Assembly (NCBI RefSeq): GCF_014876185.1
Contig: NZ_JADALJ010000001.1
Span: 3,143,501 to 3,207,500, forward strand
Source: Rufibacter sp. LB8
GTDB taxonomy: Bacteria; Bacteroidota; Bacteroidia; Cytophagales; Hymenobacteraceae
DNA length: 64,000 nt
Reading direction: 5' to 3'
Part shown: piece by piece, positions 1,595-57,746 of the stretch
How positions within the stretch are numbered: position 1 is the first letter of the stretch
Layout of the letters: each line of letters opens with the position of its first letter
Translations under genes and position numbers: made by a program
The notes under the pieces: generated by a model
Databases searched by the model: none
The model's input: only the letters and a program-made list of their open reading frames with translations
Told to the model about the DNA's origin: nothing

Positions 1595-2125
1595 ATGAAA
1601 AAGCTGTTCTTTTCTTTTTTAACGATGCTCATTTTTACCGCCGGCACTGCCCAGGCGCAACAAGTCACGCTCAAAGCCAGCATTCTGAGCCCCATTGTCA
1701 AGACCGGTTCCTTCTTTGCCGAGTACGCTTTCTCGCCGCAGATGAGCGCGCAGCTGGGCTATTTCCAGACGGGCATGAAAGTGAAGGAAACCAGTTTTGA
1801 CGGCTTTGGCATTACCCCCGAGGTGCGGTATTTCTTTTTTGGCGAGGCGCCCCGCGGGCTGTACGGCGCGGGATACCTGCGCTACCAGGACTTCACCCTC
1901 ACCCGTGAAGACACCCAGGCCACCGGTTCGCTCACTTCTTTTGGCGGCGGCGCGCTTCTGGGCTACCAGATGATCCTGGGGAAACATTTTGTGCTGGACC
2001 TCTTTGCCGGACCGGGCTTTAACGCGGCCACGGTGAGCGGCGGCGGCGGCGAAGAGAATTTTGACCTGGGTACCTTCGGCGGATTCAGCCCGCGCGGCGG
2101 CATTACCGTGGGCATTGCGTTTTAG
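1595..2125 (+). CDS. Small outer-membrane beta-barrel protein (DUF3575-like)
   Basis: 176 residues with a signal peptide (MKKLFFSFLTMLIFTAGTAQ, cleavage after AQA near residue 22), then a small porin-like barrel of alternating strands. It ends GGITVGIAF with the aromatic C-terminal residue typical of outer-membrane barrels. It shares the opening pattern (LKASILSPIVKTGSFFAEYA versus LLKVNLLAPLVSTGSFYYER) and the GFGITPEVRY / GYGITPEYRV motif with the gene at 16067, so the two are paralogues about 14 kb apart. The stop codon lies inside a copy of the hairpin repeat. The function is unknown; an OmpW/OmpA-like barrel domain is possible. Confidence 0.75.
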   Translation: MKKLFFSFLTMLIFTAGTAQAQQVTLKASILSPIVKTGSFFAEYAFSPQMSAQLGYFQTGMKVKETSFDGFGITPEVRYFFFGEAPRGLYGAGYLRYQDFTLTREDTQATGSLTSFGGGALLGYQMILGKHFVLDLFAGPGFNAATVSGGGGEENFDLGTFGGFSPRGGITVGIAF

Positions 2126-2170
2126 GGCCCGTTTTCAGAAATGAGCCCGAAAACAGGATTTTGGTTGAGG
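2112..2170. repeat. 59-bp direct repeat, copy 1 (contains a hairpin element)
   Basis: Begins in the last codons of the outer-membrane gene (GCATTGCGTTTTAG), runs through a hairpin-repeat copy and ends TTTTGGTTGAGG. The same 59 bases, with two mismatches, recur at 15913-15971 in the same orientation, on the far side of the porP and giant-protein genes. The flanking bases differ, so the ends are sharp. Confidence 0.9.
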
Positions 2171-2246
2171 TTTCAAACTGAACAATGCTAGGTTACCAGA
2201 TCCATTGCGGGCAAATGATATTTCGCTTATTGTTCAGTTTGAAACC
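2169..2246. repeat. 18-bp perfect inverted repeat across the porP/sprF 3' end
   Basis: GGTTTCAAACTGAACAAT at 2169-2186 is the exact reverse complement of 2229-2246. The inner arm encodes GFKLNN near the end of the PorP/SprF protein; the outer arm lies past its stop codon. The loop is 42 nt. There is no U-tract after the outer arm, so a standard terminator is unlikely; it looks like an inverted copy of the gene tail. Confidence 0.9.
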
Positions 2247-3230
2247 CACCAGAATTTCATGTGAACCGGCATTGGTGGCATTCAAATCAGAGGTATTCAA
2301 ATCATAGGAATAACCGAAGTCCAGCAGTGGGCTCACAAATAATCCTCCTAAAACGGTGAAGGAATCTTTGTTGCGGTAAGAAAGCCCCACCCACATGCGC
2401 TCACTGTACATTGCTTTCACGTTTAGGTCAATTGAGGCAGGTGTACCGGTGGCTTTTCGGTACATGATTGAGGGGGTCAACATCACCCCCCGGTTAACCT
2501 TGAATCTGTACCCCCCTGTAATGTAAAAGTGCGGCTGCATGCGTCCTGAAATAACAGTGGAATAGGCATCTTTGAAATCATCTCCGCTGCTGATTAACTG
2601 GGTGCCAGAAACGCCCAGGAAGGCGGTAGGCGTATACACCCACACGCCCACACTTATGTCTGGCTTTAGGGTACTCACGTAAGAACCTTGCAGAGCGGGG
2701 TCAGTGGCATCTACTGCCCGTGCCTCTTTTGCGTTGAAACTGGTTCTTAGAGCGCCTGCAGAAATACCGCTTGCAACATTCAACTCACTGGTGATAGGAA
2801 GATGGTAACTATATAGAAAATTCACCGAGCTGGTATTCAATAGGCCAGCTTTGTCTACCTGCACAATAGCCCCCACCCCATGGTGCGGATTCACCCGATA
2901 AAATCTATTGTTCTTATTGACCCCAGTGCTTTTGGGAGTAGCAATTGCTGATTTCCTAAACTTACTTCTGGTGGTGGCGTTCCGATCATTTTTACCAATG
3001 GACGTGTGCGCACTGGTATAGAAAGAAATAGGTGATCCTTCCAGCCCAACCCATTGCTTTCTGAAGGAAGACCTAATGTCTGTGTAGCTTTCTATGCCGG
3101 CCACCGCGGGGTTCACAATGACACTATTAGACATATACTGACTGTACTGCGCCACTTGCTGCCCAAGGGTTTTTATGCTGGCAAGGCCCAGGAACACCAT
3201 TCCTAACACACATTTTCTTATCACTTTCAT
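2193..3230 (-). CDS. PorP/SprF family T9SS outer-membrane protein
   Basis: 345 residues with a signal peptide (cleaved near GQQ, residue ~24) and the N-terminal family signature QYSQYMSNSVIVNPAVAGIE, then SSFRKQWVGLEGSPISFYTS, followed by a beta-barrel domain and a SHEILVGFKL tail. PorP/SprF proteins work with the type IX secretion system and gliding machinery and are often encoded beside a secreted protein with a type B C-terminal sorting domain, which they help to anchor or export. Here the start codon is 9 bp downstream of the giant-protein stop, so the two form an operon and are probably a cognate pair. The pairing is an inference from position. Confidence 0.93.
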   Translation of the reverse strand: MKVIRKCVLGMVFLGLASIKTLGQQVAQYSQYMSNSVIVNPAVAGIESYTDIRSSFRKQWVGLEGSPISFYTSAHTSIGKNDRNATTRSKFRKSAIATPKSTGVNKNNRFYRVNPHHGVGAIVQVDKAGLLNTSSVNFLYSYHLPITSELNVASGISAGALRTSFNAKEARAVDATDPALQGSYVSTLKPDISVGVWVYTPTAFLGVSGTQLISSGDDFKDAYSTVISGRMQPHFYITGGYRFKVNRGVMLTPSIMYRKATGTPASIDLNVKAMYSERMWVGLSYRNKDSFTVLGGLFVSPLLDFGYSYDLNTSDLNATNAGSHEILVGFKLNNKRNIICPQWIW

Positions 3231-3239
3231 GGTTCCCTG

Positions 3240-6200
3240 TTATTTAATGATGGTGACACTGCCAGACATGGGGGCCTCATCCTTGTCCAGATACAGAATG
3301 TAGTAATAGGCTGATACCGGCAACGGTTTGCCTTGGTAGGTGCCGTCCCATCTGGTCTGGTACCCCTCTGACGAAAATATTTTAGCGCCCCATCTGGTAA
3401 AGACCTCCACACGACAGTTAGGGTAATGCTCAATGTTCAGGATTTCCCAGTCATCATTGATACCGTCTTTGTTCTGCGTGATCACGTTAGGTATAAACAC
3501 TTTGGGAAGCACGGTCACAGTCACTTCATCTGTGTCTACACAACCTTCAGCGGACGTCACAGTCACGGTGTAGGTGGTGGTTTCATCTGGTTTGGCTTGG
3601 GTAACGGCTGTGTTAGGCGATGACAAACCTACGGCAGGCGACCATACATAGCGCACTCCGCCGGAGGCTCTCAACTGGGTGGTTCTACCTTGAATAATAG
3701 TGACATCTGGTCCGGCGTTCGCCAGCGGCGCCACAACTTCAACTCTAATAGCTGTTCTGCTGGCACTAGTGCAACCTTGCGCTGATACCGTTTGCACATA
3801 ATAAGTAGTGGTTTCTGTAAGGGCTGGCGTAATAAAACTGACACCCACATGTATTACAGTTCCTCCCTGGGCTTGTTCATACCATTCAACCTGCTGCCCT
3901 GGGTTGTTGACTCTAAGCAATGCCGTAAACCCGGGACAGATTCTGGCTCCTGGATTTTGCCAAACAGGAGCCGCTGGTAATGGATTCACTGTTATCTGAA
4001 CCACCGCGCTTGTCTGATTTTGGCATGGCAATGACGCCACCACTCTTCTAAACCAAGTACTCTGAGTTAATACAGCAGGCTGATAGTCTTGGACATTGTT
4101 TATGCCGGGAGCCGGCGTGAAACCAACCAGCGGGCCATTGGTGCTTATTTCCCATAGGTAGGTGTACCCGCTTCCGCCGCCCGCTGGCATAGAGCCTTGC
4201 AATAGGTTTGGCGCTACCCCCGCGCAGATACTTTGGTCAGAGATGATGATGTTGTTAGAAAGAGGCTCTGCCACCGTTATTTTCACCGGATCACTGATAT
4301 CTTCTGCGCATGGCGAAGACGTTACCACCCTCCGGAACCACGTTGACACGCTCAATGGCCCTGGCCGATAATTCAGGCCTGTATTGTCCCCAATTGCGGC
4401 AGTATAAGTAAAGCCGTCAGTACTTCTTTCCCATAAGTAGGTATAGGTGCCGGTGCCACCAGCAGGTTGCACCCCGTTAATGGCTTGTGGCAGATCTCCT
4501 CTACAGATAAATTGCTCTGCACTGATAAGATTATTGGTCAAGGCAGGTAATACATTTATCTGTAGGTAAGCAGAAGTGTTATTACAGCCGCCAGAGAACA
4601 CTGTCCTTCTAAACCAAGTAGGGCGGGTTAAGTAGGCAGGCTGGTAATTTGCCGTATTGTTAGCACCTTCCGCGGGTCTCCAGCCACTATTGGGGCCCGT
4701 TACACTTTCTTCCCATAGATAAGTGTAAGCATCATTTCCGCCTTGTGGCAAAGTGCCTGTCAGCGCTGCTGGCAAAGCGCCTGCACATATGGCTTGGTTA
4801 AATGAAACGCGGTTATTAGAAATTGGCGGATTAATTCTGATTCTCACAGAACCACTGTAATGCGGGTCACAGGGCCCAGCGCTGACTACCCTTCTGAACC
4901 ACGTAGTCTGCAGAACAAGCTCAGGCATATAGGTAGAAGCCGTGTTCACGCCTCTGGCAGGGCCAAAGCCGCTGTTAGGCCCTTCAATGCTGCTTTCCCA
5001 TAGGTAGGTGTAGTTGCCTTTTCCTCCTGTAGGAAGCGTGCCCGTCAAAGGCATAGGAGTAGCGCCAATACAAATTTCCTGATCATCGGTTACCACGTTG
5101 TTGGCAATATTCTTATTGACCGTAACCTGCACGGCAACACTGATATCTGTACAATTCCCTGACATGACTACCCTTCTAAACCATGTATTCTTGGTAAGCA
5201 CAGGTGCCTGGTAATTAATCTCAGTGTTATCGCCGCTGGCTGCGGTAAAGCCAGAAGTAGGGCCGGTTTCGCTTACTTGCCACAAATAAGAATACGTGCC
5301 GTCTCCGCCGCCAGGTGCCAAGCCTAAGAATAGAGCTGGTGCGGTGTTCTCGCATACTGTCTGCGCGCTTTGCACCACATTGTTGGTGATTAATGGGTTC
5401 ACCGTAATCATGACCATGTTGCTGGCCTGCGCTGGACAAGGCGCCGAGAGGACAATGCGCCGGAACCAGGTGTTTCTGGTAAGTACCGGCGGGGCATAAT
5501 TCGCTTCGCTGTTCAAGCCCTCTGCCGGCACAAAGTCATTTAAGCCAGAGTAGCTTACTTGCCATTGGTAGGTGTAGCTTCCGCTGCCACCGGCTGGTGT
5601 TGTCCCGGTCAGGCCTGCTGGCCTGGTACCCGTACAAATGAGTTGCGGAGTAGTGATGCTGTTGTTGGTAATGGCCTCATTTAAGGTAATCTGAATAGCG
5701 CTGCTAGTGACTGCCGGGCAAGACGTGCCGGCTTTCACCACTCTCCTGAACCAGGTGGTCTGGGTCATAATACCTGGATTGTAGTTTTGCTGGGTATTGT
5801 CTCCAGCAGCCGGTGCAAAACCGGTGGTGGCACTTAGTGTACTAGCCTCCCATACATATTCATACAAGCCATTTCCGCCGGTGGGCAGTGAGCCTATTAG
5901 GTCTGCCGGGGCATTGCCAAAACAGATGACTTGGGAGGCAGCTACTTGGTTGTTTTTAATGCTTTCCCGTATGGTTACCACAATAGCGGCAGAAACGCTT
6001 TCGCACCCTCCAGAAATCACCACTCTTCTAAACCAGGTAGTCTGCGCTAAGGCAGCTGATTGGTAAGATTCATTGGTGGCCACTCCCGCCGCTGTCCTGA
6101 AGTCGCCCAGCGGCCCAATGGTGTTGCTTTCCCAACGGTAAGTGTACTGGTTGTTGCCGCCGGAGGGGTTGGTAGCCGTGAGAAGAACCGGGGTATCACC

Positions 6201-9200
6201 CTCGCAGATATCCTGTTCCGGTGACACCACATTGTTGGCAATGGGCGAGTTCACCACAATCTGAACCGTAGGCGACGTGTTTTCACAACCTCCTGATGTG
6301 ATTTTTCTGCGGTACCAAGTGGTCACGTTCAAAGCACCTGGTGCATAGTCCTTGCCGGTGTTAAGGCCAGGGGCTGAACTGAAGGTGCTGTTGTCAGTGC
6401 TGAATTCCCACAAGTAAGCATAGGTCCCATCACCACCGGTTGGGTTGGTGCCAGCTAAGGGCTGTGGTACTACCCCAGAACAGATTTCCTGATGGGCAGA
6501 TACGGTGTTGCTAGCAATAACTGGGTTAATGGTGACCACCACTGCCGTTCTTGGACTGACACAACCCTTATCATCAGTTACCTGCACGTAATAGGTCTTG
6601 GTAGTAATGATAGTAGAAGTCAGAACTTCGGTTTCAAACGTAACGCCTTCTGCCACGGGTGCCCCCCCGGTGTTCACGGTAAACCATTCGTACTTGCCGG
6701 TAGCCATGGGGCTGCTCACTGCCAGCGTAGCGGTAAAGCCAGTACAAATGACTTTATTGGCAGCTACCGGCGGATTTGGCAATGGATCTACCAATACCTG
6801 AACTGCCTCTGAATAATTAGTACAGCCGCCGGAGATGACCACTCTACGGTACCAGGTGGTTTGGGTTAGCACGCTAGGCTGGTAATCTTGGGCATTGTTG
6901 GTGCCGGCAGCGGTTACAAACCCATCAGAGGCAGAAACAGTACTGCTTTCCCACCGGTAGGTATACGCCGCGTCTCCGCCTGCAGGCACCAGACCGGTTA
7001 ACTTGGTGGTAGGTGCACTGCCAATACACACGCGCTGGTTTCCGGCAATAGTGTTGTTGGTAATACCAGGGTTCACCTGTATTGCAATGGCAGCACTTAC
7101 ACTTTCGGCACAAACTCCAGAGATAGCCACTCTTCTGAACCAGGTTGGCATGTTCAACGGACCTGGTGCATAGTCTTGTGCCGTAGCATTGGCAATAATA
7201 GTAAAACCAGTGGTTGCATTACTAGTACTCATTTCCCAACGATAGGAATAAGTACCTGTCCCGCCGCTTGGCAAGGTGCCAGTTAATGACGTTGGGATAG
7301 CCCCGGCACAGATGACCTGTGGCGCAGCAACAGTGTTGTTGGCAATAAGCTGTTCTACCGTGACTGTCACAGACGTACGGGTAGCACTGGCGCAATTGTC
7401 TTTTATTGCCTCTACATAATAGGTAGTGGTCTGGGTTAGGGAAGGCGTCTGGAATGATGGTCCATCATACAAGGCTGTTCCACCTGTAGCAGCGGCGTAC
7501 CATAAATACTTTTCAGCGGGACCAGTGGCAGTAAGGGTCGTTGTAAAACCGGCGCAGATAGTAGTTACCGAAGCAACGGCAATACCCGGTGCGGCTGGCA
7601 ACGGGGTCACCATCACTTTCATGGCCTGTGAAGTTACCGTACAGGCTACAGATGTCACCACTCTGCGGTACCAGGTGGTAGCCGTAAGCGTGCCTGGCTG
7701 GTAATCTTTCTCTGTTGCCCCGGCTATGTTAGTGTAGTTTAAGCCATCAGCGCTTTCCTGCCATATATAGGTGAAGGTGTTGTTTCCGCCCGCTGGAGAA
7801 CTGCCCGTAATTTTAAATGGAACCGTATTGGCACAGATTATCTGGTCAGCAGAAAGCGTATTAGCTGTAATAGGCTGGGTAACTTCTATCTTAACAGCCG
7901 CACTTATACTTTCTGTACAAACCCCAGCCCTAACAATTCTGCGGTACCAGGTTGACTGGGTAAGGGTTCCCGGTGAATAGTCTCTGGCAATGGCACCCGC
8001 AAGGGTGGTGTATGTAAGACCGTCAGCGCTGCTCTGCCACTCATAGCTATAGGTTGCTGCGCCACCGGTTTGTACGCCACCCGTAGGCGCAGCGCCCATT
8101 AAAGCCGCCGGGACTGACCCTGAACAGATAACCTGGGCTGCTGAAATAGTATTGCCGACAATTGGCTGTTGTACCTCAATCTTAATCTCATTGCTGGTAG
8201 AAGAGCATCCGCCAGAAATTACTAATCTGCGGTACCAGCGGGTTTCATTCAATATGCCTGGCGCATACTCTGCGGCGGTAGCACCAGAGATATCTGTGAA
8301 AGTGGTATTGTCTGTGCTTATCTGCCATTGGTACGTGTACCCTGTACCTCCGCCAGCAATGGCACCACCTGTTAATTTCTGAGGAGCCTGACCAGCGCAG
8401 ATAGTCTGGACAGCTGAAATGGCGTTTCCAGTTATGCCAGCGTTTACCGTGACTTTTATTTCTGGGCTAAGAGAGGCATCACATACGCCTGAAGTTACTT
8501 TCCGGCGGAACCAGGTAGTTTGAGCAAGCGGGCCTGAAGCGTGGTCTTTTGTATTGCTGTTAGTGATAGCCGTAAAGACAAGGCCATCAATACTTCTTTC
8601 CCACACAAAAGTATAGGTGCCGGTACCTCCCGTTGGCATGGAACCTGTGAACCCTTGGGGAGTTGCCCCTTCACAGATTTCCTGGTTAGTAGAAATGGTA
8701 TTAGCCGTAATTGGCTGCTCTACAGTAATTACTACCGCTGTACGAACCGCACTGGCGCAATTGTCTTTTATGGTTTCTACATAATAGGTGGTGGTTTGGG
8801 TAAGCGCAGGCGTTACAAAGGTGGCGCCTTCAAACAAGACAGGGCCAGCAGTAGCCACCGCGTACCACCGGTAGGTATCTCCGGCACCGCCTGAAGCAGT
8901 TAAGGACGCCGTGGAGCCTGCGCAAATGGTTTTTCCGGCTGCGGTAGGTGCAGCCGGAAGTGGCGTTACCGTTACCTGCATGACGGCACTAATCTCCGTA
9001 CATGCGCCTGAGGTCACCTTTCTGCGGTACCAGGTAGTAGCGGTTAAAGCACCTGGCTGATAGTCTTTGCCGTTGGCATTGGCAATGGCGGTAAAACCAG
9101 TGGTAGCTGATGTGATGCTGCTTTCCCAGCTATACGTGTATGTTATTCCGTTTCCGCCAGTGGGTTGCGTGCCTACCACTAGAGTTGGTGTACTGGTAGA

Positions 9201-12200
9201 ACAGATGGTTTGGTCAGCAGAAAGGGTGTTTGTAGTAATTGGCGCCGTGACATGAATCTGGATGGCATCACTAATGCTTTCTGTACAAACGCCAGCTATT
9301 ACCACTCTTCGGTACCAGGTAGTTTCTGTTAAAACACCTGGAGCATAGTTGCTGGCAGTAGCCCCAGCAATGGTAGTAAAGCCTGTAGCACTTGAAGTAG
9401 TACTGCTTTCCCAACGAAAGGTGTAAGTAGCAAAAGAACCCAGGGCCGCTCCACCAGTTGGAGTTAAACCCGTGATAGCCGCCGGAGCTGAACCAGAGCA
9501 AATGTCCTGTGCCGCGGAGATTGTGTTATTGGTGATAGGTTGCTGTACTTCCACCCGTACCGCAGAACTGATAACGGAACATCCACCGGAACTTACTACT
9601 CTCCTTAACCAAGTGGTAGCAGTTAAAGCAACTGACTGATAATCTGCACCATTTGCTCCATTGATAGTGGCAAATCCTGCAGTAGCTGAGGTGGTACTAC
9701 TTTCCCAGCCAAATACATAAGAACCGTCGCCACCCGCTGGAACATTCCCCGTTACTAATGGCGGTACCTGACCAGAGCAGATAGGAGCTACGGTGTTGAT
9801 AGTATTATTGGTAATAGCAGGGTTAGCGGTAACTTTAACAGCCTCTGACGTAGAAGCAACGCACACCCCAGACGTGATTACTCTCCGGTACCAGGTGGTT
9901 TCATTCAATGCTCCCGGGCTATAAGTGGTCGAAGTTGCTCCTGAGATAGTGGTAAATGCTACACCATCTGTACTGCTTTCCCAACGATAAACAAACGCAC
10001 CTGAACCACCCGCCGGAGTTGTACCGGTTAATCCTTGCGGTGTGCTGCCCACACAAATAATTTGAGCAGCATTAATGGTATTGTTGGTAATTGTCTGCTC
10101 TACTGTTACAGTGACCGCGGTGCGTGTGGCACTGGCACAATCTGCCTTCACCGTTTCTACATAATAGGTAGTGGTTTGGGTGAGCACCGGCGTAATATAA
10201 GTAGCCCCGTCAAAGAAGGAGGTTCCACCAGTGGCCGACGTGTACCAACGGAACATGTCGGCAGCTCCGGAGGCGGTTAAAGAGGTTGACGTGTTGGCAC
10301 AGATAATTTTACCGGTAACCGTTGGGGCAGCTGGCAGCGGCGTCACAGTTACTTTCATGGCGGTGCTGGCTACTGTACAAGCCCCAGACGTAACTATTCT
10401 TTTGTACCAAGTGGTCACTGATAAGGCCTCCGGGTGATACTCTTTGCCGGTGGCCCCAGTAATATTGATATAAGTAGAACCATTGATGCTTACTTGCCAT
10501 TGGTACGTGAAGCTGTTATTGCCTCCTTGTGGCGTACTACCCCCTATGTTAGCTGGTCTGGTGCCTGCGCAAATAGTTTGGTCTGCCCCTACTATATTCT
10601 CTGTAATAGCATTAGTGATCTTTATTTCAATTGCCGTGCTGGTAATTTCTGGGCAAGCCCCAGAGAATACTTTTCTTCTGAACCAGGTAGTTTGCGAGAG
10701 AACACCTGGCGTGTAATCTTTGGCCGTGGCGCCCGTAATGGAGGTAAAGCCGGTGTTAGCGGAAGTGGTGCTGCTTTCCCACACATATGTGTAGGTACCT
10801 GTTCCGGCGCTTGGCGTAGAACCAATTAGGGTAGTCGCTGCACTACCAGCACAAAGGTCTTGCGGACCCGTAGTAATGGTGTTGTTGGTGGCCGGCATTT
10901 GAATGGTAATTTGAAGGGCGGCACTTATCACCGTACAAGCGCCTGAGCTAGCTCTCCTTCTAAACCACGTAGTCTGGTTTAAGACACCAGCAGTGTAATC
11001 CTTACCAGTAGCATTATCAATTACGGTAAAACCAGCAGTGGAAGAGGTAGTGCTTATTTCCCACACAAAAGTAAAGGTCTCTGTTCCACCAGTTGGGTTT
11101 GCCCCTAAAATGGCTGTAGCAGGTGCGGTGCCCGCACAGATAGTGGCCTCTGCTATGCTCAAGGTATTATTAATGATAGGTGCCGTTACCTCCACTTTAA
11201 TAGCATCACTAGTAACGGCGGCGCAGGCACCCGAAGACACTACTCTGCGGTACCAGGTAGAAGTAGTTTGCGCAGGTGTTTGGTAGTTTTGCGCTGTTGC
11301 GCCTGTAATAGGAAAGTAATCAACCCCATTGGTACTTGACTGCCACTGGAACGCGTAGGTACCTGACCCACCAGCTGGAACTGACCCGTTAAACTGGGCT
11401 GGTATGCTGCCTGAACAGATATTCTGGTTACTGCCAATGGTATTATTAGTGATGAGCGCTTGTACGGTTACCTGAACGGCGGCACTCTGAGCAGTGCAGC
11501 CACCAGAAGTTACTGCTCTTCTAAACCAGTAAGTACCGGTGGTTAAATTACCAGGGTCATAGTCTTTCCCGGTGGCTGAAGTAATATCAGAAAAGGTAGT
11601 ACTGTTAGAACTGATTTGCCACTGGTACAAATGGGTACCATCTCCCCCACCCGGCGTTGCGCCTAGAAACGCTACCGGAGAGGAGCCTGTACAAATCACC
11701 TGGGCCGTGCCGTTGGTAATAGTGTTGTTGATGATGGCCGGGTTAACAGTTATTCTAACAGCATTGCTATTGCTGGGGGCACAATATCCAGCAGTCACTA
11801 CCCGGCGGTACCAGGTGGTTACGATAGGCGACTGCCCTGCACTAAACGTTAAATTCACGGCAGTGGCTCCCGCCACGCTGGTGTATGTACCATTTTCAGT
11901 GCTGCTGCTCTGCCATTGGTAGACATAGCTTCCGCTGCCACCTGCAGGCACAGAACCTATCAAAACCGAAGCAGGTTGGTCTCTACAGATAATCTGTTCA
12001 CCCGTGATAGCATTGTTGACAATTGTCTGCTGCACCATTATCTGAACTGGCGCACTCTCCTGCGTGTCACAGGCGCCAGAAGAAACTACTCGCCTGAACC
12101 AAGTAGTCACATTTAAAGCCATTGGCTGATAATTGCTTGCCGTAGCCCCAGTAATCTCATTGTAGTCTGCAGTTGCTGAAGTAGTGCTTAGCAACCATTT

Positions 12201-15422: not shown

Positions 15423-15611
15423 AGAAAGTAATAAAGGGTAATAAGGAAAATCAGGAAGCGAACAGGTAGGCCTATTTAATAAATGATAAAATAATTATAT
15501 TATAATATTCTAATGAAGAAGCTAACTTATGAAGGTGAAAGGTTTGAGCACCGGCATCACGAAATACACTTGGTCCTGCCATTGAACTCTTTGGTACTGA
15601 AGCTTAAATTA

Positions 15612-15626
15612 TGATAATAATTATCA
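15612..15626. promoter_or_regulatory. Fur-type 7-1-7 operator dyad
   Basis: TGATAATAATTATCA is a perfect dyad (7 bp, 1-nt spacer, 7 bp) and matches at every specified position the TGATAATnATTATCA consensus known for Fur-family ferric-uptake regulators. It lies 190 bp upstream of the giant-protein start and 441 bp upstream of the gene at 16067. The distance to the start is long for a repressor site unless the leader is long. No Fur-family gene is in the window. Confidence 0.5.
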
Positions 15627-15912
15627 GTGTAATTTATTACCGTTAGAGAGGAAATAAATGGCACTCCTGTTACGTAGTCTGGCACAGACCAACGCAAGAT
15701 TTTTCGTAGTTGTAGATAGAGCGGGCGCTCCTTTAAGGCGGCGTAATGAAATATAAGGTGGGGGACCTCTTATTTTAAGCAAAAGTACCAAAAGAATTCA
15801 CCATTCTACTAAGTATATCTACTAGATTTAAAAGAATCCTCGCAATTCTCGTCCTTGTTAGTAGCTATAGACTTTTAGTGTTGGGTTGTCAAGACATTAT
15901 GCTTTCCTGTAA

Positions 15913-15971
15913 GCATTGCGTTTTAGGCCTCGTTTTCAGAAATGAGCCCGAAAACAGGATTTTGGTTGAGG
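15913..15971. repeat. 59-bp direct repeat, copy 2 (contains a hairpin element)
   Basis: Matches 2112-2170 at 57 of 59 positions. It includes the codons for I-A-F and the stop of the upstream outer-membrane gene, although no gene precedes it here, so it looks like a displaced gene tail plus its trailing hairpin element. Confidence 0.9.
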
Positions 15972-16066: not shown

Positions 16067-16603
16067 ATGAAAAAAGCCCTTTTGCTCGCATTGTTTGGTG
16101 GTCTCCTTTTCTTTGGCAAGCCTGTGCAGGCCCAAAACAACTTATTAAAGGTAAACTTGCTGGCCCCCTTGGTGTCTACTGGTTCTTTCTATTATGAGCG
16201 CGTGCTGGGAGATTCCAGAAGTATTCAGGTTGGGGCGTTCTTCACCAAGTTTGAGGAGTTGTCTGGCTACGGCATTACGCCCGAATACCGCGTGTATTTG
16301 TCTGACGAACCTGCCCCGGCAGGGTTCTATGTAGCGCCTTTCGCCAGTTTCATGAGCTTTACCATTGAAAGCGATGAAGACTATATGAATGATTTCAAGG
16401 CCACGGCCAGGAACTTTGGCGGCGGATTAGTGGTGGGCCGTCAGTGGATCTTCAAGGAAATGGTGTCCTTTGACATGTTCATTGGGCCTGAATACACCGT
16501 AGGGAACATGGAGTTCATCAGCGGGGACCGGGAACAAGCTGAGTCTGCCAACCTCACCGGCTGGATTGGCCGGGCAGGTATCTCTGTTGGCCTCAAATTC
16601 TAG
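16067..16603 (+). CDS. Small outer-membrane beta-barrel protein (DUF3575-like), paralogue of the gene at 1595
   Basis: 178 residues from the ATG at 16067, which begins a clean signal peptide (MKKALLLALFGGLLFFGKPV, cleaved after VQAQ); the in-frame ATG at 16040 would put nine extra residues in front of it. The mature part has alternating beta-strands, the GYGITPEYRVYL motif and a C-terminal GISVGLKF that ends in phenylalanine, as expected for an outer-membrane barrel. It is related over its length to the 1595-2125 product. The two probably arose by duplication and are now separated by the porP/giant-protein operon. Transcription ends at the 44-bp palindrome just downstream. Confidence 0.75.
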   Translation: MKKALLLALFGGLLFFGKPVQAQNNLLKVNLLAPLVSTGSFYYERVLGDSRSIQVGAFFTKFEELSGYGITPEYRVYLSDEPAPAGFYVAPFASFMSFTIESDEDYMNDFKATARNFGGGLVVGRQWIFKEMVSFDMFIGPEYTVGNMEFISGDREQAESANLTGWIGRAGISVGLKF

Positions 16604-16604
16604 T

Positions 16605-16640
16605 TTCGGCTTCGTTTCCAAAATAGAGCCCAAAAACGGG
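16605..16640. repeat. Hairpin element, degenerate copy merged with a terminator
   Basis: GTTTCGGCTTCGTTTCC paired with GAGCCCAAAAACGGG; the right arm runs directly into the 44-bp terminator palindrome, whose first bases it shares. Confidence 0.75.
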
Positions 16641-16675
16641 GAGGCCCGCTGCATGCAGCGGGCCTCCCCGTTTTT
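16632..16675. terminator. 44-bp perfect palindrome, bidirectional terminator
   Basis: Each half is 22 bases (AAAAACGGGGAGGCCCGCTG and its exact complement) with no spacer, giving a very GC-rich stem flanked by A and T runs. It lies between the convergent genes ending at 16603 and 16708, so it can end transcription from both sides. Confidence 0.9.
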
Positions 16676-16707
16676 GTGACAGTATACTTTGTACCGGAAA
16701 TAGACTT

Positions 16708-17629: not shown

Positions 17630-17669
17630 CCGTTTTCGGGCTCATTTTCAGAAATGAGCCCGAAAACGG
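17630..17669. repeat. Hairpin element, perfect copy
   Basis: 18-bp arms CCGTTTTCGGGCTCATTT and AAATGAGCCCGAAAACGG match perfectly around the loop TCAG. It lies 45 bp upstream of ribH, between ribH and the TPR-gene terminator. Confidence 0.95.
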
Positions 17670-21916: not shown

Positions 21917-21956
21917 CCGTTTTCGGGCTCTGTTTTGGAAATAGAGCCAAAAACGC
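21917..21956. repeat. Hairpin element
   Basis: Arms CCGTTTTCGGGCTCTGTTTT and AAATAGAGCCAAAAACG; both arms carry the ctc-t / a-gag variation (GCTCT with AGAGC), a matched change. It sits between the two acetyltransferase genes. Confidence 0.88.
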
Positions 21957-22550: not shown

Positions 22551-22590
22551 CCGTTTTTGGCTTCATTTCTGGAAACGGAGCCAAAAACGG
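22551..22590. repeat. Hairpin element
   Basis: Arms CCGTTTTTGGCTTCATTT and AAACGGAGCCAAAAACGG around CTGG: T-for-C and A-for-G changes in the two arms keep pairing; one mismatch remains. It starts 12 bp after the acetyltransferase stop. Confidence 0.92.
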
Positions 22591-23397: not shown

Positions 23398-23463
23398 ATT
23401 TCAGAATCCCGTTTCTAAAAGAATGAAGTTACAATTGCTTCCTTCAGCGATACTCCAAATCTC

Positions 23464-23501
23464 TGTTTTTGCCTACATTTAAGAAATCGAGCCCAAAAAC
23501 G
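23464..23501. repeat. Hairpin element, degenerate copy
   Basis: TGTTTTTGCCTACATTT and AAATCGAGCCCAAAAACG; recognisable, but the left arm is decayed. It ends two bases before the thioesterase start codon, so it forms the leader of that gene. Confidence 0.6.
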
Positions 23502-23503
23502 AA

Positions 23504-24079
23504 ATGCAGCACCCCACTCCTGAACCTGAGATCTTCCGGCCTGTCTCCCACTCCCGCACCACGCTTACGGAGTTGATGATTCCCAGCTACGCCAACTTCG
23601 GGGGCAAGATTCATGGGGGAATTCTGCTGTCTCTCATGGACAAAGTGGCTTATGCCTGCGCCGCCAAGCACGCCGGCAATTACTGCGTGACGGTGACCGT
23701 AGACGGCGTGAATTTCCTTCAGCCCGTTGAGGTGGGTGAACTGGTGAGTCTGCTGGCGTCGGTGAATTACGTGGGCAGAACGTCTTTGCTGGTGGGTATT
23801 AAGGTGATTGCCGAGAACGTGAAATCAGGCACGGTCAAGCACACCAACACGTCTTACTTCACCATGGTGGCCAAAGGCGAAGACGACAAACCCACCAAAG
23901 TGCCCGGCCTCACCCTGGAAACCCCCGAGGACGCCCGCCGCTTCATTGAGGCCCTGCAACGCAAAGAAATAAAAGCCCGCTCAGAACAGGAATTCAAGGA
24001 AATCACCACCAATTTAGAGCTTCGGCAAAACATGCCCCGCCTGGTGGGCCAGCGCTGCCAACTGGGCTTTGAGTTGTAG
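23504..24079 (+). CDS. Acyl-CoA thioesterase (hotdog fold, YciA/BFIT type)
   Basis: 191 residues. These enzymes hydrolyse acyl-CoA to free acid and CoA. The hotdog helix is clear in PSYANFGGKIHGGILLSLMD followed by KVAYACAAKHAG (G-x-x-H-G-G with the active-site Asp), then the strands CVTVTVDGVNFLQPVEVGEL and YVGRTSLLVGIKVIAENV. The ~45-residue tail after the domain (EALQRKEIKARSEQEFKEI) is charged and helical. Chain-length preference cannot be read from the sequence. Confidence 0.9.
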   Translation: MQHPTPEPEIFRPVSHSRTTLTELMIPSYANFGGKIHGGILLSLMDKVAYACAAKHAGNYCVTVTVDGVNFLQPVEVGELVSLLASVNYVGRTSLLVGIKVIAENVKSGTVKHTNTSYFTMVAKGEDDKPTKVPGLTLETPEDARRFIEALQRKEIKARSEQEFKEITTNLELRQNMPRLVGQRCQLGFEL

Positions 24080-24118
24080 CGTTTTCGGCCTCGTTTCCAG
24101 AAATGAAGCCGAAAACGG
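24080..24118. repeat. Hairpin element
   Basis: CGTTTTCGGCCTCGTTT and AAATGAAGCCGAAAACG around CCAG, directly after the thioesterase stop codon (24077-24079). Confidence 0.92.
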
Positions 24119-25653: not shown

Positions 25654-25693
25654 CTGTTTTCGGGCCCATTTCTGAAAACGAGCCCGAAAACGG
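25654..25693. repeat. Hairpin element
   Basis: CTGTTTTCGGGCCCATTT and AAACGAGCCCGAAAACGG around CTGA. It sits in the 168-bp gap between the serine hydrolase start and the ABC ATPase stop. Confidence 0.92.
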
Positions 25694-28158: not shown

Positions 28159-28198
28159 CCGTTTTTGGCCACGTTTTAGGAAATGAAGGCAAAAACGG
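28159..28198. repeat. Hairpin element
   Basis: CCGTTTTTGGCCACGTTTT and AAATGAAGGCAAAAACGG; partly mismatched in the middle, outer eight pairs intact. Confidence 0.88.
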
Positions 28199-28311: not shown

Positions 28312-28351
28312 CCAGTTTCGCCTCCATTTCCAATTTAGAGCCCGAAAACGC
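28312..28351. repeat. Hairpin element, degenerate copy
   Basis: CCAGTTTCGCCTCCATTTCC and TTTAGAGCCCGAAAACGC; the right arm is well kept, the left is decayed. Confidence 0.65.
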
Positions 28352-30706: not shown

Positions 30707-30745
30707 CTGTTTTGGGGCTCATTTCTGAAAATGAGCCTGAAAACG
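30707..30745. repeat. Hairpin element
   Basis: CTGTTTTGGGGCTCATTT and AAATGAGCCTGAAAACG around CTGA; it lies between the dehydrogenase stop and its terminator. Confidence 0.88.
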
Positions 30746-30766
30746 TGTTTTAAGGAACGATGAACC

Positions 30767-32285: not shown

Positions 32286-32324
32286 CCGTTTTTGGCCTCA
32301 TTTACGGAAATGAGCCCCAAAACG
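32286..32324. repeat. Hairpin element
   Basis: CCGTTTTTGGCCTCATTT and AAATGAGCCCCAAAACG around ACGG; in the divergent gap between the dehydrogenase and the peptidase gene. Confidence 0.9.
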
Positions 32325-32403
32325 AACCGCTACTCAGGCAACTATTGCTTTCTGCTGAATAATGCGGAAATTACACATTCCTTTATCATTACAACTCGCT
32401 TTT

Positions 32404-33824: not shown

Positions 33825-33863
33825 CCGTTTTCGGCTTCGTTTCTGGAAATGAGGGCAAAAACG
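33825..33863. repeat. Hairpin element, left neighbour of the 160-bp element
   Basis: CCGTTTTCGGCTTCGTTT and AAATGAGGGCAAAAACG around CTGG. Confidence 0.9.
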
Positions 33864-33866
33864 CAA

Positions 33867-34035: not shown

Positions 34036-34075
34036 GCGTTTTCGGCTTTGTTTCTGGAAATGAGCCCGAAAACGG
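34036..34075. repeat. Hairpin element, right neighbour of the 160-bp element
   Basis: GCGTTTTCGGCTTTGTTT and AAATGAGCCCGAAAACGG around CTGG, preceded by AATTGCGTTTT-type sequence shared with the copy at 41385. Confidence 0.92.
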
Positions 34076-36621: not shown

Positions 36622-36676
36622 AACTCCCGTTTTGGGGCTCATTTTCAGAAATGAGCCCCAAAACGGGAGTTTTTTA
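36622..36676 (+). terminator. Hairpin element acting as intrinsic terminator
   Basis: The 23-bp arms are perfect complements (the hairpin element extended by AACTC/GAGTT) around TCAG and run straight into T(6). It lies 20 bp after the patatin stop. The inner arm has GGGGCTC where the common form has CGGGCTC, and the other arm carries GAGCCCC, a compensating change. Confidence 0.93.
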
Positions 36677-36904: not shown

Positions 36905-36944
36905 GCGTTTTCGGGCTCATTTCTGGAAACGGAGCCGAAAACGG
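36905..36944. repeat. Hairpin element
   Basis: GCGTTTTCGGGCTCATTT and AAACGGAGCCGAAAACGG around CTGG; three bases from the stop codon of the DUF2807 gene. Confidence 0.9.
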
Positions 36945-37816: not shown

Positions 37817-37856
37817 CCGTTTTCGGCCCCATTTCTGGAAATGAAGCCAAAAACGG
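37817..37856. repeat. Hairpin element
   Basis: CCGTTTTCGGCCCCATTT and AAATGAAGCCAAAAACGG around CTGG. Confidence 0.92.
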
Positions 37857-41155: not shown

Positions 41156-41195
41156 CCGTTTTAGAGCCCATTTCTGAAAATGAGCCCGAAAACGG
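41156..41195. repeat. Hairpin element, left neighbour of the second 160-bp element
   Basis: CCGTTTTAGAGCCCATTT and AAATGAGCCCGAAAACGG around CTGA, extended to AATTC...GAATT outside. Confidence 0.9.
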
Positions 41196-41384: not shown

Positions 41385-41424
41385 GCGTTTTCGGGCTCAT
41401 TTCCGAAAATGAGCCCGAAAACGC
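41385..41424. repeat. Hairpin element, perfect copy, right neighbour of the second 160-bp element
   Basis: GCGTTTTCGGGCTCATTT and AAATGAGCCCGAAAACGC around CCGA; all 18 pairs match, including the G-C outer pair where other copies have C-G. Confidence 0.95.
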
Positions 41425-43938: not shown

Positions 43939-43978
43939 CGGTTTTTGGCCTGCGTTTGGGAAATGAGGGTCAAAACGC
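43939..43978. repeat. Hairpin element
   Basis: CGGTTTTTGGCCTGCGTTT and AAATGAGGGTCAAAACGCCG; GGCC with GGGT-type decay in the middle, upstream of the RNase R gene. Confidence 0.8.
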
Positions 43979-45881: not shown

Positions 45882-45921
45882 GCGTTTTTGGCCTCGTTTC
45901 TGGAAATGAGCCCGAAAACGG
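45882..45921. repeat. Hairpin element
   Basis: GCGTTTTTGGCCTCGTTT and AAATGAGCCCGAAAACGG around CTGG; upstream of the fused ABC gene. Confidence 0.92.
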
Positions 45922-47408: not shown

Positions 47409-47448
47409 CCGTTTTTGGGCTCATTTCTGAAAACAAGCCCGAAAACGG
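47409..47448. repeat. Hairpin element
   Basis: CCGTTTTTGGGCTCATTT and AAACAAGCCCGAAAACGG around CTGA, between ileS and lspA. Confidence 0.9.
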
Positions 47449-51160: not shown

Positions 51161-51200
51161 CCGTTTTCAGGCTCATTTCCAGAAACGAGGCCAAAAACGG
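51161..51200. repeat. Hairpin element
   Basis: CCGTTTTCAGGCTCATTT and AAACGAGGCCAAAAACGG around CCAG. Confidence 0.9.
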
Positions 51201-51226: not shown

Positions 51227-51357
51227 GCGCGAGTCTCCATACTCGTGGTACCAGATGTGTGGAGTCTCCAGACTCCTTTTCCTATATGTTCGGTTTGTGG
51301 TTCACTGCGAGTCTGGAGACTCACTTCATCCCAAGTCACAAGACTGGAGTCTCGCGC
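51227..51357. repeat. GAGTCT/AGACTC palindrome cluster
   Basis: Ends GCGCGAGTCTCCA and TGGAGTCTCGCGC are inverted repeats (one mismatch). Inside are two compact hairpins, GGAGTCTCCAGACTCC (51261-51276) and GAGTCTGGAGACTC (51309-51322), so the hexamer GAGTCT/AGACTC appears about six times in 131 bp. Confidence 0.8.
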
Positions 51358-51424: not shown

Positions 51425-51463
51425 GGCGTTTTTGGGTTCTGAATTGGAAACGAAGGCAAAACC
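51425..51463. repeat. Hairpin element, degenerate copy
   Basis: GGCGTTTTTGGGTTCTGAAT and GGAAACGAAGGCAAAACC; outline kept, pairing largely lost. Confidence 0.55.
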
Positions 51464-51587
51464 AGGAATCCACTTTTTCACAGCACAACTTTGGTCTTTC
51501 TTTATTCCGCTTCATTTTTAAGCGGCTTTATGATGGGCGGCACGCTGCTTCTTTGTTTATTTGCCGCTGCACTTTTCAACGTTTGCC

Positions 51588-52695: not shown

Positions 52696-52747
52696 AATGC
52701 GTTTTTGGCTCCGTTTTCAGAAATGGAGCCAAAAACGCATTTTTTTA
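52696..52747 (+). terminator. Hairpin element acting as intrinsic terminator of the epimerase gene
   Basis: The hairpin element at 52699-52738 (arms GCGTTTTTGGCTCCGTTT and AAATGGAGCCAAAAACGC, all pairs kept apart from one G-T) is extended by AAT/ATT and runs into T(7), 20 bp after the stop. Confidence 0.9.
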
Positions 52748-52996: not shown

Positions 52997-53036
52997 CTGT
53001 TTTTGGGCACAATTCTGGAAATGAAGCCGAAAACGG
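52997..53036. repeat. Hairpin element
   Basis: CTGTTTTTGGGCACAATT and AAATGAAGCCGAAAACGG around CTGG; the left arm is partly decayed. It lies three bases after the glyS stop. Confidence 0.82.
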
Positions 53037-54705: not shown

Positions 54706-54751
54706 TTTTAACTAGTAGTTTTGGCAGCTTTTTTTCTCACCCTCAATTTTT

Positions 54752-56158: not shown

Positions 56159-56178
56159 GGCCTGTATGACTTTTATAT

Positions 56179-56214: not shown

Positions 56215-56222
56215 GTGTATAG

Positions 56223-56262
56223 CCGTTTTCGGGCTCATTTATGGAAATGAGCCCGAAAACGG
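56223..56262. repeat. Hairpin element, perfect copy
   Basis: CCGTTTTCGGGCTCATTT and AAATGAGCCCGAAAACGG around ATGG, all 18 pairs matched. It follows the phosphate transporter terminator. Confidence 0.95.
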
Positions 56263-56437: not shown

Positions 56438-57574
56438 ATGGCCAAACGTAAGAAGGGAAAAGGATCCCTGGTTCCTGCCCAACCCTACAAATTCCGGAAA
56501 CGGATAGGTATTCTGGACATCATTCTCAAGCGGGATAAAAGCTTCCTTTACTTTATTGCCTTTTCCTTTATTCTGGTGGGCGTGGTGTACCCGTATGCCT
56601 CTGTGGCCATGTGGGTGGGGTTTGCATTTGCGGGCTACTCTGCCATTGCCAATGACAGCATACAAACCATAGGCACGTTCATTGTTTCCAACGAAGACAA
56701 AAAATGGTACTGGCAGTGGCTTTTCATGGGCGGCATTTTTCTGGCCACCGTTTTTTACAGCTGGTACGTCTTCAACGGCGATGTCACGTATGAACGCCTT
56801 TCTTCCAAAGGGTTCAAAGATACGCCTACCAGCTTTGTGTTCCTGCAGATAGCCGCCCCGGTCATCTTGCTCCTGCTCACCCGCTTCCGGATTCCGGTTT
56901 CCACCACTTTTATGCTCCTGAGCGTTTTCACCGTTGACTCCAAGGCTATTTTAAGTATGGTGAACAAGAGTTTGATGGGCTACGTGGCTGCCTTTTTAGT
57001 GGCCTTGTTTCTGTATCTGCTATTAACTAACATCATCAAGAAGTTTATAAAAGGCCAGGCCCATGGTGCCTGGATCTGGGCCCAGTGGATCATCAGTGGC
57101 TTTCTGTGGCATATCTGGCTGGCTCAGGATCTGGCCAACATTGCGGTGTACCTTCCCCGCCAATTGAATGTGTGGGAGTTCGCAGCCTTTGCGGCTTTTA
57201 TCTTCTTTGGTCTGGCGTATATTTTCTACATGCGCGGTGAGAAGATACAGAACATCATCAATGAGAAATCTGAGGTGCGGGATGTACGCAGTGCCACCAT
57301 TATTGACCTGGTGTATGCGCTCATTCTCTATTATTTCAAGGAAGTCAACAACGTGCCCATGAGTACTACCTGGGTGTTTGTGGGCTTGCTGGCGGGCCGC
57401 GAGTTGGGAATGCGCATCAGGTCCAGAGATTCTACTACCAAGTTCGCCAAGACCTTTAAATTGATAGGCAAAGACATCTTCTCCGTGGCTCTTGGTTTAT
57501 TGATCTCCATTCTTTTGGCCATTGCCATTAACCCGGCTATTCAGGAAGAGATTAAAGCGTATTTTATGGGGTAA
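56438..57574 (+). CDS. Divergent PiT-like membrane protein
   Basis: 378 residues, ~9-10 membrane segments after a basic N-terminus (MAKRKKGKGSLVPAQPYKFR). PiT-like half-motifs remain: FAGYSAIANDSIQTIGTFIV resembles the first PiT repeat, and FRIPVSTTFMLLSV plus NNVPMSTTWVFVGLLAGREL resemble the second (P-V/M-S-T-T). The classical GFNDAANA and PVSTTH forms are lost, so it may not carry phosphate, or may have another substrate or act as a partner. It lies downstream of the true PiT gene on the same strand. Confidence 0.8.
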   Translation: MAKRKKGKGSLVPAQPYKFRKRIGILDIILKRDKSFLYFIAFSFILVGVVYPYASVAMWVGFAFAGYSAIANDSIQTIGTFIVSNEDKKWYWQWLFMGGIFLATVFYSWYVFNGDVTYERLSSKGFKDTPTSFVFLQIAAPVILLLLTRFRIPVSTTFMLLSVFTVDSKAILSMVNKSLMGYVAAFLVALFLYLLLTNIIKKFIKGQAHGAWIWAQWIISGFLWHIWLAQDLANIAVYLPRQLNVWEFAAFAAFIFFGLAYIFYMRGEKIQNIINEKSEVRDVRSATIIDLVYALILYYFKEVNNVPMSTTWVFVGLLAGRELGMRIRSRDSTTKFAKTFKLIGKDIFSVALGLLISILLAIAINPAIQEEIKAYFMG

Positions 57575-57598
57575 CCCTGCTCTCACATAGATATAAAC

Positions 57599-57629
57599 AA
57601 AATAGCCGCTCTAGAGCGGCTATTTTGTT
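57599..57629 (+). terminator. Intrinsic terminator of the PiT-like gene
   Basis: 28-bp perfect palindrome: AAAATAGCCGCTCT and AGAGCGGCTATTTT, then TTTTGTTT. Confidence 0.9.
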
Positions 57630-57706
57630 TACCAGGCATTTGGTTTGAATTTTCTGGGTCTGCTAAACTGAAAATGTAGCCAGAGCGTGTAGGCTTGGTT
57701 AAATTT

Positions 57707-57746
57707 CCGTTTTTGGCCTCATTTTCAGAAATGAGCCTGAAAACGG
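57707..57746. repeat. Hairpin element
   Basis: CCGTTTTTGGCCTCATTT and AAATGAGCCTGAAAACGG around TCAG, extended by ATTT/AAAT. It is the last copy in the window; none follows to 64 kb. Confidence 0.9.

Follow-up and report, generated by a model that had tools for sequence, protein, structure and literature searches.

rRNA operons and tandem arrays are well-known cases of concerted evolution, and among shorter bacterial repeats the Correia, ERIC, RPE and BOX families are mostly longer than the element considered here and come with target duplications or coding insertions. The uptake sequences (DUS) of Neisseriaceae are 10-mers to 12-mers able to act singly. They have species dialects and also lie in genes (PMC3630211). 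GTAG- or CGTC-tagged REP families are palindromes of 20-40 bp whose copies number from tens to thousands and for the most part separate convergent or co-directed genes; the CGTC families, reported from Bacteroidetes, have a terminal CGTC, an 8-9 bp stem and a CCA tail, and lack a dedicated transposase (PMC3733652). REPIN/RAYT systems, also the subject of PMC3116915, are portrayed as long-persisting populations of sequences within a genome, each with a master sequence (PMC8049555).

We analysed a repeat first noticed in a 64-kb stretch of Rufibacter sp. LB8 DNA (the window, meaning this whole stretch). The reading we prefer, with a probability of roughly 0.45, is that it represents a Rufibacter-wide family of ~40-bp dyads at transcription-unit ends, inherited largely in place and homogenised within each genome, so that lineages gain their own dialects. 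No description of the element was found in the titles and abstract openings of papers listed by searches of an open-licence library, and an Rfam scan of the window at gathering scores gave 0 matches.

The element is a dyad (hairpin) of ~40 bp with a 17-18 bp stem and a 4-nt loop. The stem foot is CGTTTT/AAAACG, flank positions -3 to -1 are mostly TTT, and across genomes the foot (GTTT...AAAC) is almost invariant while the inner half varies. The window was scanned for two arms (CCGTTTTCGGGCTCATTT and its complement) separated by a loop of 1-8 nt, with at most 13 mismatches in 36. Of the 29 palindromes in the initial annotation, 28 were recovered in this way, and the 29th (51425) is decayed yet readable as CGTTTTTGGGTTCTGAA-TTGG-AAACGAAGGCAAAACCA. 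Four additional scan rows at 12-13 mismatches (26991 and three in 57.75-64 kb) are chance-like; a stricter core pattern gave 14 matches in the window versus 0 in 100 shuffles. The copies are listed below, all unstranded and all from the two-arm scan except the one read from the sequence.

2117..2156, element copy, overlaps the DUF3575 gene end
15918..15957, element copy, direct-repeat partner of 2117
16600..16639, element copy, diverged
17630..17669, element copy, perfect consensus
21917..21956, element copy
22551..22590, element copy
23463..23502, element copy, diverged
24079..24118, element copy, convergent gene junction
25654..25693, element copy
28159..28198, element copy
28312..28351, element copy, diverged
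30707..30746, element copy
32286..32325, element copy, divergent spacer
33825..33864, element copy
34036..34075, element copy
36627..36666, element copy, 23-bp arms (stem runs on into flanks)
36905..36944, element copy
37817..37856, element copy
41156..41195, element copy, 24-nt arms, 88% complementary (stem runs on into flanks)
41385..41424, element copy, 1 mismatch per arm versus the 18-nt consensus
43939..43978, element copy, diverged
45882..45921, element copy, divergent spacer
47409..47448, element copy
51161..51200, element copy, divergent spacer
51425..51466, element copy, decayed (read from sequence)
52699..52738, element copy
52997..53036, element copy, 3-4 nt past the glyS stop
56223..56262, element copy, perfect consensus
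57707..57746, element copy

Copies 2117 and 15918 are included in a 59-bp direct repeat (2 mismatches) that brackets an adhesin module. The uniformity initially ascribed to the family had to be corrected: pairing at all 18 positions is found in only 29 of 156 counted copies. For alignment A1 copies were picked by likeness to a palindromic consensus, so that the pair counts made from it lean toward pairing. Orienting copies by the loop half was dropped, the two arms being indistinguishable at p<0.01 in LB8 and G013.

Genome-wide, LB8 has 785 copies at up to 3 mismatches in 34 arm letters (0 for the reversed-pattern control) and 922 at up to 3 in 32. Twenty evenly spaced 20-kb samples held 4-14 copies each at up to 11 mismatches (mean 8.8; 0 in one shuffled control per sample), which extrapolates to ~2,046 copies, evenly spread, in the 4.59-Mb chromosome (~2,040 when the window is counted in). 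This agrees with the initial view that the palindromes are far commoner than ordinary terminators. An uneven chromosomal spread was ruled out by these samples together with the model listing, in which copies occur throughout, and a low-GC 'island' (L014) turned out to be masked sequence. Copies are mostly single, since only 9 of 183 neighbour gaps are below 100 nt and the median gap is 1,465 nt.

The scan of the genome and of Hymenobacteraceae that had been proposed at the outset found copies throughout the LB8 chromosome and practically none in the family outside the genus. The element is nearly restricted to Rufibacter: it is present in 16 of 16 genomes examined (one per species) at 2.1-6.1 copies per 10 kb, and other Hymenobacteraceae have practically none, also in an order-level model search that scored only 57 candidates per genome under stricter filters. 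Among 15 genomes there are 11 different consensus arms, or dialects, the shared ones being those of G013/G007, G003/G004, G002/G011 and G010/G014; G012 gave too few seeds, and its copies were counted with a genus consensus. With up to 6 mismatches allowed, the LB8 consensus matches 20 times in the window and 4, 1, 0, 0 and 0 times in the five relatives, while the G013 consensus matches 38 times in G013 and twice in LB8.

With respect to genes, the median distance from the stop codon is 57 nt. Gene calls were crude (81% coding), and the convergent and tandem spacer counts are therefore limited to well-scored neighbours. Well-supported convergent spacers contain the element in 25 of 26 cases; among spacers of 45-100 nt it is found in 11 of 15 convergent versus 2 of 24 tandem ones, and 43-47% of divergent spacers have a copy. 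Intergenic placement, as initially claimed, holds in the window but not everywhere, because 9 of 204 copies sampled elsewhere lie more than 40 bp inside a called ORF. One of these 9 is clearly coding, in egtB. There the genus has a linker ~3-4 residues longer than most outgroup rows (16 compared, three of them equalling or exceeding it), which rules out a clean 40-bp insertion.

Comparison with relatives reveals what a single sequence could not show: many of the sites are shared, but the element there is written in another dialect. Within 150 nt downstream of the stop, 21 of 39 LB8 window genes have a copy. For these 39 genes and five syntenic relatives (170 comparable cells), the element occurs within this distance in both LB8 and the relative in 62 cells, in LB8 only in 22, in the relative only in 23 and in neither in 63 (Fisher 1e-9; taken singly, G009 and G010 are not significant). 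Stop distance is kept within 5 nt in 31 of the 62 shared pairs, against a mean of 9 and a maximum of 18 in 2000 shuffles. Elements are thus largely inherited in place, and the unmatched cells (22 of 84 LB8-positive, 23 of 85 relative-positive) mean that gain and loss occur as well. Copy 17630, for example, lies 85 nt past the stop in LB8, and four of the five relatives have an element 83-87 nt past the orthologous stop; for copy 41385 the values are 15 nt and 16-26 nt (four of five), and for copy 43939, 31 nt and 24-31 nt (all five). Copy 22551 is 12 nt past its stop, compared with 11 nt in G013 and 12 nt in G007, the only comparable relatives. Downstream of glyS (copy 52997), 8 of 15 congeners pass the scan and 7 have copies that are decayed as read by eye (38 of 80 loci examined). 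The orthologous spacer of copy 45882 has no detectable element in five relatives.

Sequence behaves differently from position. Orthologous copies of LB8 and G013 are 0.729 identical (n=15) versus 0.735 for non-orthologs (0.720 for both in 19 pairs), whereas copies within a genome reach 0.807 in LB8 and 0.803 in G013. Since orthologs are no closer than random cross-species pairs and copies within a genome are closer, this amounts to concerted evolution in place. A small ortholog memory is seen between LB8 and G007 (0.724 versus 0.707, p 0.035). G004 and G014 are eroded, with vertical memory kept and genome-wide likeness absent: ortholog identity is 0.80, cross identity 0.62 and within-genome identity 0.62-0.63 (51 of 76 elements paired), the memory being clearer partly because these two are closer relatives (88% nucleotide identity) than LB8 and G013 (76%). 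Homogenised and eroded states thus coexist within one genus with what are apparently re-homogenised ones; the tree nodes placing LB8, G006 and G008 are weakly supported.

Relatives having many of the same places with a different spelling, the family seems to have been rewritten together without moving. Tentatively, and as less likely than not, we suggest a genome-wide process in which thousands of short hairpins are rewritten from other copies, by arm or by whole element, at gene boundaries that are themselves conserved, with dialects shifting while positions stay and with loss and restart (G005, R. immobilis) of the process in different lineages. In the preferred reading, homogenisation would be ectopic gene-conversion-like copying of one element onto another with the flanks unmoved, the hairpin being the likely trigger if extrusion or cleavage of the dyad, or stalling at it, were repaired from one of the many other copies. 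Block-like arms count in favour: within LB8 arms linkage reaches z 51 and arms fall into haplotypes, and G005 arm distances are two-peaked, arms being either in dialect or far from it with few between. Other observations count against it. By the standards of ordinary RecA-dependent conversion, 40 bp with 60-80% identity is a short tract, and no conversion event was observed in the genomes compared. Differences between G013 and G007 arms look Poisson-like (variance/mean 1.19), and one-sided changes dominate (117 versus 11 paired). G005 at first seemed a strong case of one-arm conversion. The key prediction was, however, mostly unfulfilled in the 22 orthologous pairs that have a single dialect arm (48 of 89 elements paired with G011): the other arm differs from its G011 ortholog by 5.4 letters on average, as against 5.38 for non-orthologous arms, and is kept within 3 differences in 5 of 22. 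Overwriting of single arms is retained only for the tentative process above. As 13 of 28 G005 copies with one dialect arm share one haplotype, these copies may be an asymmetric subfamily. The unmatched cells, the G007 ortholog memory and the copies in divergent spacers also speak against the preferred reading.

Another possibility, which we regard as rather unlikely, is that a putative protein binds each arm or the whole dyad and drifts in specificity within each lineage, mutation and selection then adjusting ~2,000 sites to it, much as uptake-sequence dialects track their receptor, only without uptake. Change in place and dialects fit, as do the almost invariant foot with its variable inner half and the lack of arm-arm covariation at LB8 inner positions (z -3.5 to 0.3), and whole-lineage erosion would equal loss of the factor. 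However, concordant selection would be required at ~2,000 sites, and the G005 arm classes and LB8 haplotypes are unlike independent site-by-site change.

For the preferred in-place family, a role at the DNA level at gene boundaries, either as a site for a dyad- or structure-binding protein or as a topological boundary, may be proposed because nearly every well-supported convergent junction is occupied and elements outconserve their flanks. Between G013 and G007 element identity exceeds that of aligned flanks in 24 of 25 cases (0.83 versus 0.69; 25 of 39 and 25 of 37 elements aligned, the others lying outside alignable blocks, and 31 of 37 in a later pairing). The existence of eroded lineages indicates that the element is not indispensable. 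An RNA hairpin at mRNA 3' ends, acting as a terminator or exonuclease block, would suit the stop distance, the occupied convergent junctions and a predicted stem of -29.5 kcal/mol, but it appears improbable. A U-tract is absent, a simple terminator rule (GC stem, then T-tract) picking out 3 of 203 copies, and ordinary terminators are about equally common in spacers with and without the element, which also occurs in divergent spacers. Nor is there an excess of G.U: on the sense strand, 90 tandem copies have 83 G.T versus 79 A.C, with 34 versus 53 in convergent (nearer gene) and 20 versus 19 in divergent spacers. The tandem symmetry counts for a DNA-level element.

A comparably low probability is given to mobile REP/REPIN elements moved by a Y1 (RAYT-like) transposase, with orthologous places as old insertions and dialects reflecting a changing master copy. 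The initial likening to a REP/BIME-type family stands for size, number and intergenic placement; it fails for the Y1/RAYT link, tags, clustering and a clear target duplication. In palindrome size, copy number and gene-end placement the element resembles GTAG/CGTC REPs, of which the CGTC families also have no dedicated transposase (PMC3733652), and like REPIN/RAYT it is a long-persisting intragenomic population with a master sequence (PMC8049555). Per-genome consensus and 3'-end preference are REP-like too, 15 of the 16 Rufibacter genomes have Y1 genes and adjacent 4-nt direct repeats are slightly above chance (6 of 200 copies versus 2.2 expected). However, a copy lies within 150 nt downstream at only 4 of 33 Y1 loci (of 45 genus matches; 2 of 6 in LB8), against 21 of 39 LB8 window genes, and the family is homogenised in G007 although PF01797 finds nothing there at E <= 0.001. 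In place of a terminal, unpaired GTAG there is the CGTTTT/AAAACG foot; CGTT rather than CGTC is found there, the stem has 17-18 bp as opposed to 5-13 bp in REPs, the loop 4 nt, the CCA tail is lacking (PMC3733652), and mostly single copies replace the clusters of alternating copies typical of BIMEs. MITE-like target-site duplications (adjacent direct repeats of 5-13 nt) were seen in 0 of 200 copies. The 155-kb LB8 plasmid has no LB8-dialect copies at up to 6 mismatches. Unlike in REPIN/RAYT, sites are kept while the sequence changes, and orthologous positions with genome-wide dialect turnover do not feature in the available part of the GTAG/CGTC account (PMC3733652). With Correia, ERIC, RPE and BOX the element shares being short, intergenic and hairpin-forming, but it is shorter than most of these and has no clear target duplication.

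That the element is the DNA uptake sequence used by a competence system is hardly credible: copies per genome are about as many as for Neisseriaceae DUS and dialects are present in both (PMC3630211), but the Rufibacter unit is the whole dyad of 38-40 bp, all 303 arms at up to 3 mismatches lie within palindromes and 0 alone, and copies are rare in coding DNA.

Here, ~2,000 dispersed 40-bp bacterial sites seem to change jointly yet stay put, and both the upkeep of REP-like repeats and their gene-end role become testable through strain comparison. A dialect may also serve as a mark of where DNA came from: the LB8 plasmid carries foreign-looking copies.

The hairpin repeat is abundant and is not a product of chance. 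The initial annotation had counted about 29 copies in the window; a scan for two 18-nt arms around a short loop recovered 28 of these, and the remaining one, at 51425, is present in decayed form. A chance origin is excluded because a stricter core pattern had 14 matches against none in 100 shuffles. The whole Rufibacter sp. LB8 genome (4,746,090 bp, two contigs) holds 785 copies with at most 3 mismatches in the 34 arm letters and none of the reversed pattern. Twenty 20-kb samples, evenly spaced over the 4.59-Mb chromosome, held 4-14 copies each at ≤11 mismatches, which extrapolates to about 2,046 per chromosome; shuffled samples (one shuffle each) gave none at ≤13 mismatches. A search of the window against Rfam at gathering scores found nothing, and no description of the family was found among the open-licence papers listed, including PMC3733652, PMC8049555, PMC3630211 and PMC2267715.

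The consensus is TTT-CCGTTTTCGGGCTCATTT-YYRR-AAATGAGCCCGAAAACGG-AAA. In LB8, arm-to-arm pairing covaries at the stem foot (positions 0 and 6 of the 17-nt arm, z 4.1 and 4.6) and at the first flanking pair just outside the stem (z 4.9), with no such covariation at the other variable arm positions (z -3.5 to 0.3). Within a single arm, variable positions are strongly linked (z>5 in 10 of 36 pairs, up to 51). In an 80-copy alignment 88% of cells pair vs 79% in shuffles, with 136 vs 57.5 double changes, counts affected by the selection of members for likeness to a palindrome. There are no lone arms: each of the 303 sequences that match an arm with ≤3 mismatches falls within a palindrome (shuffled expectation 1). 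Adjacent direct repeats of 4 nt occur at 6 of 200 copies (2.2 expected) and those of 5-13 nt at none. Neighbouring copies are far apart (median gap 1,465 nt; <100 nt in 9 of 183). Mismatches gave no hint of a preference for the transcribed RNA strand: counted on the sense strand, G.T and A.C numbered 83 and 79 in the 90 copies that separate co-directed genes, 34 and 53 in 46 convergent copies (p 0.053), and 20 and 19 in 20 divergent copies.

Scanning for hairpins de novo and refining the consensus by iteration detected the family in all 16 Rufibacter genomes (LB8 and congeners G001-G015) at 2.1-6.1 copies per 10 kb. A genome's own consensus was obtained for 15 of the 16, and 11 were distinct. 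Four of these dialects read as follows.

Consensus arm sequences of selected dialects
LB8: CGTTTTCGGGCTCATTT
G013 and G007: CGTTTTTGGCCTGTTTT
G006: CGTTTTAGGCCTGTTTT
G005: CGTTTAGGGGCTGTTTT

LB8 and G005 are the most divergent, many others lying 1-3 arm letters apart. At ≤3 of 32 mismatches, the LB8 consensus finds 1-3 copies in seven congeners and none in the other eight or in 23 genomes from outside the genus; at ≤6 mismatches, it finds 20 copies in the window and 4, 1, 0, 0 and 0 in syntenic stretches (82-85 kb) of five relatives. A hairpin-like sequence directly follows the glyS stop in all 15 congeners (genus taken here to include Sabulibacter), differing in sequence; eight pass a scan and seven are decayed as judged by eye. 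Copies are homogenised in LB8 (within-genome identity 0.80), G013 (0.81), G001 and G005 (0.76), G007 (0.74) and G006 (0.73), eroded (0.60-0.64) in G009, G015, G014, G004, G003, G011 and G002, and in between in G010 and G008. Homogenised G005 is sister to eroded G011 within a mostly eroded clade (support 1.0). Outside the genus, we found no copies in Pontibacter (212 kb) or Hymenobacter (172 kb) and one in Adhaeribacter (43 kb); a covariance model of the 80 copies gave, among the matches listed, weak ones in at least three of 117 other genomes of the order. In Pontibacter, short motifs (ACTATAG or GTATAAAGTATA) recur in several glyS 3' regions (L086, L088-L090, L092, L095) and may represent a further repeat specific to a genus.

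Positions are conserved. For 39 window genes in five syntenic relatives, presence of an element ≤150 nt after the stop agrees with LB8 (both 62, LB8 only 22, relative only 23, neither 63; Fisher 1e-9), significantly in G013, G007 and G006 taken singly and not in G009 or G010. Of the 62 shared pairs, 31 keep the stop-element distance to within 5 nt (shuffles average 9 and reach 18 at most); examples across six species are 31, 28, 27, 24, 31 and 30 nt, and 4, 5, 5, 4, 5 and 5 nt. The sequences have changed: between LB8 and G013, orthologous copies (15 pairs) are 0.729 identical and non-orthologous ones 0.735, with 0.807 and 0.803 within the respective genomes. Orthologs are likewise not closer in G006 (p 0.21) or G010 (p 0.35), G007 retains a slight memory (0.724 vs 0.707, p 0.035), and G009 entered with 4 pairs. 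Ascertainment should not explain the LB8-G013 result because the threshold (11/34) is wider than the 8 letters separating the two dialects. In the eroded pair G004-G014, closer relatives (88% nucleotide identity) than LB8-G013 (76%), copies are clearly inherited vertically and show no genome-wide likeness (0.80 for orthologs, 0.62 cross and 0.62-0.63 within; 51 of 76 paired). G013-G007 (83%) are intermediate, with 0.838 for orthologs, 0.777 cross, and 0.806 and 0.754 within; in 24 of 25 comparisons the element has a higher identity than its aligned flanks.

Fixed positions with changed sequence call for a process that alters sequence, not place. The initial annotation had proposed a REP/BIME-type family, a reading that is not supported here in the strict sense. 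Y1 (RAYT-like) transposase genes (PF01797) are present in all but one of the 16 genomes; the exception, G007, with its homogenised family, has no match at E ≤ 0.001. An element lies ≤150 nt downstream of 4 of 33 fetched Y1 loci (45 matches in all; 2 of 6 in LB8), against 21 of 39 LB8 window genes, sets that differ in species make-up. On the 155-kb LB8 plasmid (L221-L228) the density of the element is about one-tenth of that on the chromosome. Since its seven copies at ≤11 mismatches include several like other dialects (GGGGTGTTTT and GGCCTTATTT types), with none at ≤6, there is no sign of recent transposition of LB8-dialect copies onto the plasmid, whose source may be another Rufibacter; a dialect might thus tag the origin of DNA.

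Ectopic, gene-conversion-like copying from one element to another fits the linkage inside arms, as well as the bimodal distribution of arm distances in G005 (77, 40, 11, 7, 7, 7, 18, 10, 4, 6 and 1 at distances 0-10; column shuffles 14, 39, 51, 43, 23, 9, 2, 0). The main rival to such copying is a drifting DNA-binding specificity, with selection acting at every element site. As a guess, ectopic copying might be triggered by hairpin extrusion, followed by cleavage and repair from another copy. G013/G007 changes are one-sided in 117 cases vs paired in 11. Our first reading of G005, that one arm had been overwritten while its partner persisted, did not hold up: among 22 orthologous pairs carrying a single dialect arm, the other arm is on average 5.4 letters away from its G011 ortholog, as far as unrelated arms are (5.38). 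As the other arm is this distant and one haplotype is common to 13 of 28 one-arm copies, these are possibly an asymmetric subfamily.

The initial annotation set the element apart from ordinary terminators by its frequency and uniformity; 3 of 203 copies themselves qualify as such. T-tract terminators are similarly frequent in spacers with and without it (convergent 15/34 vs 2/4, tandem 13/72 vs 8/60, divergent 1/18 vs 1/24). By crude gene calls (303 genes in 464 kb, 81% coding), the element is present in 38/44 convergent, 72/140 tandem and 18/42 divergent spacers of 30-900 bp; with both neighbours well supported (45-900 bp) the figures are 25/26, 48/90 and 15/32. At equal lengths they are 11/15, 2/24 and 0/1 (45-100 nt), and 10/10, 20/38 and 4/16 (100-200 nt). 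Copies lie a median of 57 nt from a stop and 144 nt from a start. One copy lies within egtB, in a variable linker with a recognisable counterpart in most congeners; LB8 encodes NE at the site, in line with its dialect, and 8 of 14 aligned congeners KQ. The more distant G012 gene has a shorter linker without the element. In G001 (L246, L248) the coding copy is a near-perfect hairpin of G001 type, and the gene is split in two frames.

An adhesin module is bounded by the element.

2112-15971: module of ~13.8 kb (PorP/SprF and 4,060-aa protein)
2193-3230: PorP/SprF
3240-15422: 4,060-aa protein, Ig_7/PKD repeats and CHU_C type IX secretion tail

Because the flanking 59-bp direct repeats (2 mismatches) contain element copies and the matching region in G013, G006, G009 and G010 is about 0.5-0.7 kb, the module may have been acquired through recombination at an element. 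A second palindrome, AGACCTCACAGGTTT-NNN-AAACCTGTGAGGTCT, lies at 28361-28393 and in other loci (L016:359, L017:3268, L019:14154, L073:18199, L171:5393, L269:17534); its sequence is exactly the same in LB8, G015, G010 and G011, and from these sequences it is a repeat without dialects. A 46-bp perfect palindrome without a loop (16631-16676) overlaps the end of the 16600 element, and one divergent spacer (51227-51357) holds several GAGTCTCCAGACTC-like inverted repeats.
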